DNA from: Dokdonella sp.
Lineage (GTDB): Bacteria; Pseudomonadota; Gammaproteobacteria; Xanthomonadales; Rhodanobacteraceae
Assembly (NCBI GenBank): GCA_023228465.1
Contig: JALOBC010000023.1
Location: forward strand, 1 to 41,639
Direction of reading: 5' to 3'
Length of the DNA: 41,639 nucleotides
Of the stretch, positions 26,083-29,074 are shown in pieces. Within the stretch, counting starts at the first letter, position 1. Each line of letters begins with the position of its first letter. Under the pieces are notes generated by a model. That model saw only the letters and a program-made list of their open reading frames with translations. It ran no database searches and was not told the DNA's origin. Made by a program: the position numbers and the translations under genes.

Positions 26083-26183
26083 GGCCGGCAGCGGATCAGC
26101 CGCGCTCCTGGTCTTGCTGGACCCTTGATGCTTGCGCGAAGGCTCCCGCGTCGGATGCTTGCCGATCCGGACTGCCGGGTCGC

Positions 26184-26651
26184 CTACGATTTCTGCGCGG
26201 AGCCGGCCTGGGGATGAACGACGACCGAGAGGACGTACACCTGCAGTCCGAAGGACATGAAGTTGGCGGTCGTATTCCCACCGATGTTCATCTGATCCAG
26301 TTGCTTGCCTTCGGCATCCGCCAGCACCAGGGAATAGATCTGGCCAAAACGATCATCCCAGCGGGTTGGCGTGCATTGAACGCGGTAGATCCCGTGCACA
26401 CCCAAGTCGACAGGTTCCGACATCACGCCGGGCGTCAGGTCGAGGATCACCGGTGGTTTGGTCAGGTCGGCCCGAATGGATGCGGTCAGAAATTGCAGTG
26501 TGTCGCTGGAGCCATCCACCTCGCCCTCCCTGGAAGGGCCGATATGCCAGGGTAGCGCGTCGTCTGCATGGGCGCGCGTCGCGATCGCGGCGAACACGGC
26601 CGCGCTTGCTGCCGAAAGGGTGGCCAGAAACGATCTGCGCGATGTGGTCAC
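26184..26651 (-). CDS. Exported protein of unknown function in the radical SAM peptide operon
   Basis: The 155-aa product begins MTTSRRSFLATLSAASAAVF, a Tat-like signal (S-R-R-S-F-L) cut near RAHA-DDA. The mature part is about 125 aa, has only one Cys and no recognised domain. It is rich in beta-type segments (IYSLVLADAEGKQLDQM, FGLQVYVLSVVVHPQ). Start is GTG 26651 with AGGAG 8 nt upstream. It begins 20 bp after the second Cys-rich peptide gene, so it is the last gene of the operon. It might bind, protect or mature the exported peptide, or confer immunity; all of this is inference. Confidence 0.75.
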   Translation of the reverse strand: MTTSRRSFLATLSAASAAVFAAIATRAHADDALPWHIGPSREGEVDGSSDTLQFLTASIRADLTKPPVILDLTPGVMSEPVDLGVHGIYRVQCTPTRWDDRFGQIYSLVLADAEGKQLDQMNIGGNTTANFMSFGLQVYVLSVVVHPQAGSAQKS

Positions 26652-26670
26652 GATAGGTTCTCCTCGGTAT

Positions 26671-26913
26671 TCACTTGATTACGTAGACGCAACGACCGGA
26701 ATTGCTGCATCGCCCCGTGTTGTCCGAACCGCTGCAGTCGCCGGTGTTGCTGCAAGCCATGTTGTTGCCAGAGCAAACCCCGGAGTTCGTCCCGGAACCG
26801 TAGGGTTGAAGAACAGTGTCCAGCTCGTTGAGCTTCGTGCGAAGAGCTTCGTCGTCCACGCGAACCGCGCCATCACTCGATATGGACAACGTGTCCGGAT
26901 CGACTGCGATCAT
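26671..26913 (-). CDS. Cys-rich small protein, candidate RiPP precursor A
   Basis: The 80-aa protein has a Cys-free, acidic leader-like half (residues 1-45) and a C-terminal region with five Cys: VCSGNNMACSNTGDC, then SGSDNTGRC and SNSGRC, ending VYVIK. Cys spacings are x6, x5, x8, x5. The leader contains LSISSDGAVRVDDEALR, matching the other peptide in the operon. AGGAGG lies 6 nt before ATG 26913. The start overlaps the radical SAM stop (ATGA), so it is translationally coupled to the enzyme. No transmembrane or signal segment. It is a likely substrate of the radical SAM enzyme. Confidence 0.8.
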   Translation of the reverse strand: MIAVDPDTLSISSDGAVRVDDEALRTKLNELDTVLQPYGSGTNSGVCSGNNMACSNTGDCSGSDNTGRCSNSGRCVYVIK

Positions 26914-27902
26914 GATGATCCTCCTGTATTCAGCATCGACCAGGGACAGCCAAGCGCCTGTTCGGACATGTCGCGAAACCCTTCGAACCAGGGACGCAGC
27001 TTGTCATCGATGATGGACAGGCTGCCGTCCTCGTTCAATTGCCCGACATCGTTCCTTGAGTCATGCAGCGCAACGGTGCATTTTCCGAGGCGCCCATCGG
27101 CCCGGATGATCAATGAATTCGGCTTGGCTGCGTAACAGATGTAGCTCTGAAGGTGTTCTTCGGATATCGGTACGCCGGGCATGTCACGCGTGCTGTTACG
27201 GTCGGTGATGTAATCGATCGCGTCGAGGTATTCCTTCGTGCCAAGAACGCTTTCGCCAATCCTTTCGGCAGGGTTCAGGTTGGAAATCTTGTGGAAGTAG
27301 ATCCTGAAGCGGGAATCAACCAGCACTTCGTCGTGCAGGCGCTTGTACAGGCGCCGCACGGACTCGATGTTGTCGCGATGAACATGCAACCGCAAGGTGA
27401 TCGCGAAGTGTCCTTCGACGCGTTTGTAGCTCAGAACATTCTTCCAGATGACATTGAAGGTGCCACGGCGGTTGGCCTGGATGCGAGTCTGGTCGTGCCA
27501 CTCCTCGTCGCCATCCAGGGTGATCTGGAACTCATTGTGGTCGATTTCGAGGAGCCTGCAAAACAGATCGTAGGTCAGGAGGTACCCGTTCGTTGTGAAC
27601 CCGGCATTGAATGTCACGCCGTGCTGCCGGGACAACGAGGAAGCGTGCGCCCCGACGTCCATGACGACGGGCAAGGCCAGCAGGGGTTCTCCACCGAACC
27701 ATGAGAGAGTGAGATGGCGCAGGTGAGGGACGCGGTTCCCGATGAGCGCCTTCAGTCCACGGATCGTGGGCGCGCGCATCCGCCCGATCGCAAAGTCCTC
27801 ATAACAATACGTGCATCGGAAGTTGCACTTCTCCGTAGGGAGTACGGTGAGCGAAAGACGCTCTGGGCTCAGGGCCGCGGCAACTGCGGCGTCGGTGAAC
27901 AT
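26910..27902 (-). CDS. Radical SAM enzyme with C-terminal twitch/SPASM-like domain
   Basis: The 330-aa protein has the radical SAM cluster motif C26-x3-C30-x2-C33 (EKCNFRCTYCYED), the SAM-contact LSWFGGEPLL and the TTNGYLL strand. The C-terminal part has C-x13-G-x4-C (beginning CYAAKP, ending GRLGKC) and one more Cys in LGCPWS near the end. Three Cys suggest a twitch domain holding one auxiliary [4Fe-4S] cluster, as in several peptide-modifying enzymes. No RiPP recognition (RRE) domain is fused at the short N-terminus. It is flanked by two Cys-rich small proteins (6-bp gap before, 4-bp overlap after). Peptide thioether or C-C crosslinking is the natural inference; the reaction is not known. 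Confidence 0.88.
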   Translation of the reverse strand: MFTDAAVAAALSPERLSLTVLPTEKCNFRCTYCYEDFAIGRMRAPTIRGLKALIGNRVPHLRHLTLSWFGGEPLLALPVVMDVGAHASSLSRQHGVTFNAGFTTNGYLLTYDLFCRLLEIDHNEFQITLDGDEEWHDQTRIQANRRGTFNVIWKNVLSYKRVEGHFAITLRLHVHRDNIESVRRLYKRLHDEVLVDSRFRIYFHKISNLNPAERIGESVLGTKEYLDAIDYITDRNSTRDMPGVPISEEHLQSYICYAAKPNSLIIRADGRLGKCTVALHDSRNDVGQLNEDGSLSIIDDKLRPWFEGFRDMSEQALGCPWSMLNTGGSS

Positions 27903-27908
27903 CGCCGG

Positions 27909-28163
27909 TCACCAGATAACCTTGCCGCATTGGCCGAGATTGTCCGCGCCGGAACAATCGCCCGTGTTCGCACAGTCAAGATTCGTCCCACTGCACACGC
28001 TGCTGTTGGTGCAGGTCCCATAGTTATCCGCCGCGATCTGGCTTCCTGTATCCGTAGGCGTATCGAGAACAGCCCTTCTCAGCGTGCGGTTGTTGAAAAG
28101 GATGGAACCGTCCGCTTGCACGGTAATCCCGCTGGGATCGATCTTGTCGAATGTCGGATTCAT
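27909..28163 (-). CDS. Cys-rich small protein, candidate RiPP precursor B
   Basis: The 84-aa protein has a Cys-free N-terminal half with ITVQADGSILFNNRTLR, aligning with the leader of precursor A. Its C-terminal half has five Cys: CTNSSVC, SGTNLDC, ANTGDC, SGADNLGQC, ending GKVIW. Spacings are x5, x6, x5, x8, so the x6-x5-x8 core is shared with A, while the extra Cys is N-terminal here and C-terminal in A. ATG 28163 is chosen: it follows the promoter by a sensible leader and a GGGG site. An upstream ATG at 28196 would lie almost on the -10 box. It is first gene of the operon. Confidence 0.8.
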   Translation of the reverse strand: MNPTFDKIDPSGITVQADGSILFNNRTLRRAVLDTPTDTGSQIAADNYGTCTNSSVCSGTNLDCANTGDCSGADNLGQCGKVIW

Positions 28164-28200
28164 CGAGCAGCCCCAAGGATGGTGCGGAACGTACATGGGT

Positions 28201-28230
28201 CATATATCACGAAGTCCTGCTGTGTGTCAA
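28201..28230 (-). promoter_or_regulatory. Near-consensus sigma70 promoter of the peptide operon
   Basis: On the minus strand a perfect -35 TTGACA (28225-28230) is followed by 18 nt and an extended -10 TGA-TATATG (hexamer 28201-28206). Predicted start is near 28194, giving a leader of about 30 nt before ATG 28163. It is the best promoter match noticed in the window. Confidence 0.75.
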
Positions 28231-28564
28231 TGGCTGAATGGGCTTCCGAGTGAATCCTTGCGCTGCAGGTTTGCGGGGGGTCGTGCCTGCAGGCATGTTG
28301 GGCGAAGCCTTGGCACCGGTCATCGGCTGGCCTGTGACCGTGGCCTCGCCCGCGCGGCCTGGTGCGGCGGCACCGGGCAGGCGCCGGGCGTTCACCCGGG
28401 TATTGGTGATGGTGGCGAGCGTTTTCGGGTGCCATGGCGATGCGCAACAGATCGGGACTGTCGACGGGGGTACGTCTGCAGCCTTTGCGGCAGTCCCCGT
28501 GTCGTATGATGGCGGCAGCGGATCGATCGGCGATCCGCGCCGCCGACGACGATTCCCGCGCATC
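28231..28564. other. Intergenic region before the exosortase gene
   Basis: About 330 bp, read through by a long but unconvincing frame. A TATGAT (28505-28510) could be the exosortase -10; no good -35 is at proper distance. Confidence 0.4.
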
Positions 28565-29074
28565 ATGTTTCGTTTCATGCTGGTCTTCATCACCTGCCTG
28601 CTCGGCCTGTTCGTGCTCGAACTCCTGCGCCCGGTCGAGCTGCACGTGATCGAACCCTTCACGGCGGGGATCGCGCACGTTTCCATGTGGATCGTCGACC
28701 TGTTCGACGATACCGCGGTGGCGCACGGCAAGGTGCTGGCGACGGCGGATGGCAGCTTCGCCATTTCCATCGAACGCGGCTGCAACGGCATCGAGGCGGT
28801 CATCATCCTGATCTCGGCGATGCTGGCGTTCCCCGCCTCCTGGAAACATCGGCTGGCCGGCATCGCGGTCGGTTTCGTTGCCATCCAGGCACTCAACCTG
28901 GTGCGCATCATCAGCCTGTTCTACCTGGGTCAATGGAACCAGGTCTGGTTCGAGTGGTTCCACCTGTACTTGTGGCAGGCGTTGATCGTGCTGGATGCGC
29001 TGGTGGTGTTCCTGCTCTGGCTGCGCTGGCTGCCGCGCGGGGACGTGCAGCGATCCATGCCCGCTCCGGCATGA
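28565..29074 (+). CDS. xrtH: Exosortase H (XrtH-type, exosortase/archaeosortase family)
   Basis: The 169-aa integral membrane protein carries the catalytic triad of exosortases: Cys73 in ERGCNGIEA, Arg114 in NLVRIISLFY and His133 in WFHLYLWQ. Its short length, and the absence of extra domains, fit XrtH, which in known genomes processes proteins with an IPTLxxWG-CTERM sorting tail. Several hydrophobic helices are evident. The start is uncertain: ATG 28565 lacks a ribosome-binding site, and GTG 28499 would add an Arg-rich 22-residue N-terminus. No IPTLxxWG sequence lies in the window; the truncated metalloprotease at 38123 is a possible client. Confidence 0.85.
   Translation: MFRFMLVFITCLLGLFVLELLRPVELHVIEPFTAGIAHVSMWIVDLFDDTAVAHGKVLATADGSFAISIERGCNGIEAVIILISAMLAFPASWKHRLAGIAVGFVAIQALNLVRIISLFYLGQWNQVWFEWFHLYLWQALIVLDALVVFLLWLRWLPRGDVQRSMPAPA

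Follow-up and report, generated by a model that had tools for sequence, protein, structure and literature searches.

A conserved, apparently acquired cassette in Dokdonella that most likely makes ranthipeptide-like poly(Asn-Cys) thioether peptides

In the descriptions consulted, NxxcA of Streptococcus has a single C-beta thioether that joins Cys23 to Asn20 (PMC8326336, PMC13361665), and the ranthipeptide freyrasin carries six C-beta Cys-Asp thioethers in a row (PMC8326336). PapB, of the freyrasin system, is described there as accepting Cys-Xn-Asp with n = 0-6 (PMC9413430), and an auxiliary cluster of this enzyme as binding the Cys thiol (PMC10470005). Given these precedents, the reaction that we propose below for an operon of Dokdonella sp. 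is chemically reasonable. The genes in question are very probably a RiPP operon. They form a conserved, apparently acquired cassette whose products, to judge from sequence, would most likely be poly(Asn-Cys) thioether peptides of a ranthipeptide-like kind.

The operon lies in a stretch of 41,639 nucleotides, which we call the window. Four packed genes occupy the minus strand at 26184-28163: first precursor B, then a radical SAM enzyme of 330 aa, precursor A and last an exported protein, with intergenic gaps of 6, -4 and 19 bp; order, strand and spacing agree with the original prediction. Extending the region to 28230, as that prediction did, brings in upstream DNA only. The features are as follows.

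26090-28563, no strand: inserted segment of ~2.47 kb between the divergent aroK and xrtH
27909-28163, minus strand: precursor peptide B, 84 aa, ATG start; leader includes ...IDPSGITVQADGSILFNNRTL...; core with 5 Cys
27912-28025, minus strand: core of precursor B, five N-x(2,3)-C units by direct reading
26910-27902, minus strand: radical SAM / Twitch-type peptide maturase, 330 aa; C26-x3-C30-x2-C33, then C256, C275 and C319
26671-26913, minus strand: precursor peptide A, 80 aa; 4-bp overlap with the maturase gene
26674-26787, minus strand: core of precursor A, five N-x(2,3)-C units by direct reading
26184-26651, minus strand: exported partner protein, 155 aa, GTG start; Tat-like signal (SRRSFL) and predicted beta-strand domain

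A longer ATG start of precursor B, at 28196, is possible and would bring one extra N-terminal Cys; in the Xanthomonas and Fulvimonas homologues the alignment begins at the position matching 28163, not 28196. Each precursor has five Cys and a Cys-free first half, as had been noted, and neither gave a relevant NCBIfam or Pfam match in a profile search. Every Cys of both cores lies in N-x2-C or, mostly, N-x3-C: the pairs are N47/C51, N53/C57, N61/C64, N66/C70 and N75/C79 in precursor B, and N43/C47, N50 or N51/C54, N56/C60, N65/C69 and N71/C75 in precursor A.

The NxxC RaS-RiPPs (NxxcA/NxxcB) are alike in having an Asn upstream of Cys, at i/i+3, and a radical SAM maturase that acts on the core. 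In contrast, NxxcA as described has one link against 4-10 candidate units per core here, and its i/i+3 spacing differs from that of the window type, in which i/i+4 is commoner (-4 only, n=32; -3 only, n=18; both, n=3). By description, NxxcB has a SPASM domain (PMC8326336), whereas the window enzyme ends Twitch-like. As to the Rgg regulation of NxxC systems, the four genes fill the insert and leave no evident room for an Rgg gene, as far as layout alone tells. Freyrasin (PapA/PapB) would share the row of thioethers and the carbonyl-bearing acceptor, but there Cys comes first (Cys-X3-Asp); at +4 of Cys in the window type, Asp (3/50) and Asn (12/50) showed no enrichment, and the window maturase scored 97.4 bits with the PapB model NF047865, far below its cut-off of 340.

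We asked how far the Asn-Cys spacing holds among related precursors, using shuffles that keep the Cys positions fixed. In 11 precursors of the window type, all 53 Cys have Asn at -3 or -4 (shuffle mean 20.4, maximum 31, n=2000), as do 58/58 when the near-copy from Xanthomonas sp. F10 is included. In a second group of 12 precursors, from a Planctomycetota MAG, Caulobacterales, Massilia and other Proteobacteria, the count is 65/74 (mean 26.0, maximum 36, n=2000), so that the two groups pooled give 118/127; five of the nine second-group exceptions have Asp at -3. Among 28 more distant precursors, 49/71 Cys obey the rule (mean 19.4, maximum 31, n=2000), and with eight further rows added 56/91 do (mean 23.6, maximum 34, n=1000). 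A set of 24 precursors taken up later, and blind only in part, gave 44/75 (mean 19.4, maximum 32, n=1000); there the signal is carried by -3, the sole one of 11 single offsets tried to lie above its shuffle maximum. The rule is thus weaker away from the window type, 35/91 and 31/75 Cys having no Asn at -3 or -4. At least one N-x(2,3)-C unit is present in 11/11, 12/12 and 27/28 precursors of the window-type, second and distant groups, and in 20/24 of the later set, a value within reach of the shuffles (mean 13.5, maximum 21); the rows with zero units are L058, L065, L080 and L087, and also L095, L090 and L023b. Because the rows are related, the effective sample is smaller than these counts. Where the spacing between Cys changes, the Asn shifts along with its Cys in the alignments. 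Asn is also enriched at +2 and +5 relative to Cys, which we read as a by-product of the repeat.

The original prediction had proposed a 23-residue core pattern, C-S-G-x-N-x2-C-x-N-T-G-D-C-S-G-x-D-N-x-G-x-C, belonging to no recognised class. The pattern is exact in both window precursors and occurs in none of the 21 other precursors of the first two groups; what is conserved across precursors is the Asn that precedes each Cys by 3 or 4 residues. The defining motif is thus the N-x(2,3)-C repeat along the core, and it points to a specific chemistry with a single-ring precedent.

Some related cores are larger or more numerous. A Burkholderiales MAG (L034 7225-7632) encodes an 11-Cys precursor with Asn at -3 or -4 of 10 Cys and a C39 protein nearby; the maturase of this locus has a stop codon in the assembly. 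Genome G179 (L136 3820-8782) has four precursors around one maturase, and 15/16 of their Cys follow the Asn rule. Further, different maturases occur in Fulvimonas (L022 6889-9985) and an Oleiagrimonas-like genome (G048, L023 6299-13228), and the small Cys-bearing ORFs near them obey the rule only in part.

From the Asn-Cys rule we infer a thioether to a carbon other than the alpha-carbon. The alternative is that thioethers go to other acceptors, either as alpha-carbon sactionine links or on Thr, Ser or Gly, with Asn kept for turn geometry only. Enrichment in the first two groups is indeed seen for Thr at -5 (36/127, z +5.3) and also for Gly at -2 (38/127, z +4.9), so Asn may serve a turn, and SkfB, a Twitch enzyme, is described in the sources consulted as making alpha-carbon links (PMC6231123, PMC10470005). 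However, Asn alone recurs at a set distance upstream of nearly every Cys in these groups, and the substitution by Asp in most of the exceptions would be expected of an acceptor carbon beside a carbonyl. We regard other acceptors as unlikely, though the least so of the alternatives considered.

The maturase matches Pfam Radical_SAM (8.1e-13) and contains CxxxCxxC followed by putative auxiliary-cluster Cys in the arrangement CX13GX4C-gap-C, as in ranthipeptide-type maturases. Its three C-terminal Cys are kept in 72, 72 and 71 of 72 aligned enzymes, and no other C-terminal column has Cys in more than 15% of these rows; one auxiliary cluster site is predicted. The enzyme had been called radical SAM/twitch, with reference to enzymes that have twitch/SPASM domains; the radical SAM assignment stands, with a C-terminus that is no more than Twitch-type. 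The closest solved fold to its model is the SCIFF maturase CteB (PDB 5WHY/5WGG), which differs in having ~89 more N-terminal residues and a full SPASM domain; nothing in the window enzyme corresponds to the N-terminal, leader-binding domain of CteB, and its score with TIGR03974 was 55 bits against a cut-off of 425. Its best NCBIfam score, 144.9 bits, was with TIGR04463, the family of CefB maturases of Cys-rich RiPPs, again far below the cut-off of 525. The alignment to this profile starts only at its position 80; the window enzyme thus lacks the N-terminal part. In the last 250 residues of the CefA substrate of the one annotated example examined, Cys occurs about every fifth residue, without such Asn-Cys units. 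That CefA peptide (679 aa) is encoded with a TIGR04463 maturase on a Methylomagnum ishizawai plasmid (L122 1615-8574), which also encodes a radical SAM C-methyltransferase and a 2OG-Fe(II) oxygenase. Relatives of the window maturase were also seen in plasmid records H1-H17, some of the plasmids being typed as conjugative (Sinorhizobium, Bradyrhizobium, Acetobacter); a small leader-bearing ORF lies just upstream of the relative in 6/9 records opened. In its combination of upstream Asn, 4-10 units, Twitch-type end and absence of a fused leader-binding domain, the window system is fully matched by none of the NxxcA and freyrasin precedents. A multi-ring Asn-Cys family appears to be undescribed in the open-licence PubMed Central literature; the single-ring chemistry is already known.

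Cys-rich Asn/Thr/Ser/Gly repeats are also known in disulfide-bonded beta-helices, and the Cys of the cores might instead form disulfides or bind metal while the enzyme performs other chemistry (epimerisation, C-C or C-O links, oxidation). A fold match is blind to the type of reaction, and anSME, SuiB and EpeE match the maturase model too. The top match, CteB, nevertheless forms thioethers; the Asn-Cys distance is nearly fixed, whereas the Cys-Cys distance varies; and the odd number of Cys (five) in 9/11 window-type cores is ill-suited to full disulfide pairing. This reading appears distinctly unlikely.

Leader and core are separable in the precursor alignments, and precursors and maturase recur together in a gene order that goes beyond coincidence. 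The order B - enzyme - A - partner is also found in Xanthomonas sp. NCPPB 1128, in Xanthomonas sp. F10 (with precursor B in frame), in Luteimonas endophytica (L026), whose partner is weakly similar, and in X. arboricola pv. populi, where the enzyme frame is broken in the assembly. In the last of these (L027 4855-6982) a DDE transposase lies just upstream. Fulvimonas soli has the same order plus a third precursor, its enzyme being split over two contigs; Fulvimonas belongs to the Rhodanobacteraceae, and this genome (evidently G022) was grouped in the window's own family.

A profile of 11 window-type precursors, run on 233 family genomes, found 8 places at E ≤ 1e-5 in three genomes, every one beside a maturase. 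A second profile, of 19 precursors, run on 398 order-level genomes, found 17 places at E ≤ 0.001 in 8 genomes, the window's two included, and all 17 lie within ~2.5 kb of a maturase or maturase fragment, the linkage looked for in a RiPP system. Precursor homologues lacking a radical SAM gene had been named beforehand as evidence against such a system; no orphan occurred at E ≤ 0.001 in the genomes searched, and the only exceptions to linkage are three weak places (E 0.002-0.007) among the family genomes, with no enzyme in their loci. In a precursor search of 398 phylum genomes, the window genome alone gave a match. The maturase had some match in 14/100 genomes, the window's included, most of them weak; the other genomes of the genus that were searched, 15 in number, gave nothing at E ≤ 0.001.

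In 14/14 sister loci aroK and xrtH are adjacent, and the maturase was found at none of them. The gap between the two genes, measured from match ends, is ~80-310 bp in 13 sister loci and ~0.9 kb in the remaining one (L167), which may hold another insert at the same site. In the closest sister (L157) the gap is 155 bp, and the similarity of the window to this locus ends near 26090 and restarts near 28564. The G+C content of 26184-28163 is 58.5%, against 70.9% and 68.3% in the flanks. The simplest reading of these sequences is that a complete cassette was inserted. The neighbouring xrtH (28559-29074, plus strand), outside the operon, matches the exosortase H model TIGR04177 with 189.7 bits; it was found in 15/16 genomes of the genus, the sixteenth giving no match.

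The partner gene adjoins the operon in 7/7 window-type genomes (G000, G022, G351, G383, G431, G434 and G461). The window protein scored 13.8 bits with TIGR01409, under the cut-off of 16.7; its model has seven strands, confident over about residues 52 to 140, and its five homologues are 24-44% identical to it. Partner homologues also occur in G047 and, at a contig end, in G055, with no close maturase found there, which shows that the link of partner to system is not universal.

For the surroundings of the enzyme, we listed long ORFs in 14 loci and ran chosen ORFs of 12 loci against Pfam. Eight loci (L030-L034, L039, L046 and L047) encode a C39 peptidase protein no more than ~2 kb from the enzyme, and in seven of these it is joined to ABC transporter parts; single ORFs from L028 and L054 gave no Pfam match, and the ORFs from L026 and L027 gave no C39. 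A Gly-Gly precedes the core in 8/12 second-group and 19/28 distant precursors but in 0/11 of the window type, to which the double-Gly/C39 pattern does not extend. There was no C39 match in the window genome, and the C39 genes of the other six window-type genomes either sit on a different contig or are separated by ~50 kb or more, G461 coming nearest. The window cassette contains no protease or transporter gene that would account for leader removal and export. The partner may take the transporter's place in the window type. Two related but different systems, G179 and G025, have no partner gene; G179 has two FtsX/MacB-like permeases beside its four precursors, and G025 two C39 genes 4-7 kb from its enzyme. 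That the small proteins are never secreted, and act as peptide cofactors or structural peptides kept in the cell after maturation, would fit a cassette without transporter or protease in a genome without C39, but is very improbable given the patchy, apparently acquired cassette, the Gly-Gly leaders and C39 proteins of relatives and the exported partner encoded within the operon. Together with the conserved linkage and the CteB-like fold, those leaders and C39 proteins leave a radical SAM peptide-modification system, as originally proposed, well supported.

In the reading that we prefer, each core Asn (occasionally Asp in relatives) would lose a hydrogen at its beta-carbon to the radical SAM/Twitch enzyme, and a bond would then form between this carbon and the thiol of the Cys that follows 3 or 4 residues later. 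Each of the two precursors would come to bear five small thioether rings in series, none overlapping with another. Since only three protein Cys are conserved for the single auxiliary iron-sulfur cluster, its fourth site would be open, and it is presumably there that the Cys thiol binds. The leader would be recognised without a fused leader-binding domain. In the C39-bearing relatives, cleavage of the leader probably takes place behind Gly-Gly, with the C39 transporter carrying the peptide out; the window type may rely instead on its Tat-like exported beta-domain protein, as carrier, receptor or immunity protein. We consider it fairly probable that the window holds such a self-contained four-gene RiPP cassette, with five Asn-Cys C-beta thioether rings per precursor and export as outlined. 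A bolder form, in which the window type is the branch of a cross-phylum multi-ring Asn-Cys thioether family that has no peptidase-transporter and whose folded, cross-linked peptides leave the cell aboard a Tat-exported beta-domain carrier, itself a product of the four-gene mobile cassette, is speculative and rather unlikely.

If the preferred reading is right, a compact enzyme of 330 residues, with no fused leader-binding domain, would place about five thioether staples in each peptide, with up to ten candidate units in one relative. The acceptor residue would be predictable from sequence and so directly testable, and the readable N-x(2,3)-C code would be a handy tool for making stapled peptides in E. 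coli. The Tat-like partner raises the question of a second way to handle such peptides outside the cytoplasm. Finally, the single example of NxxcA would grow into a family whose relatives occur in Proteobacteria, Planctomycetota, Actinobacteria, cyanobacteria and one archaeal MAG.
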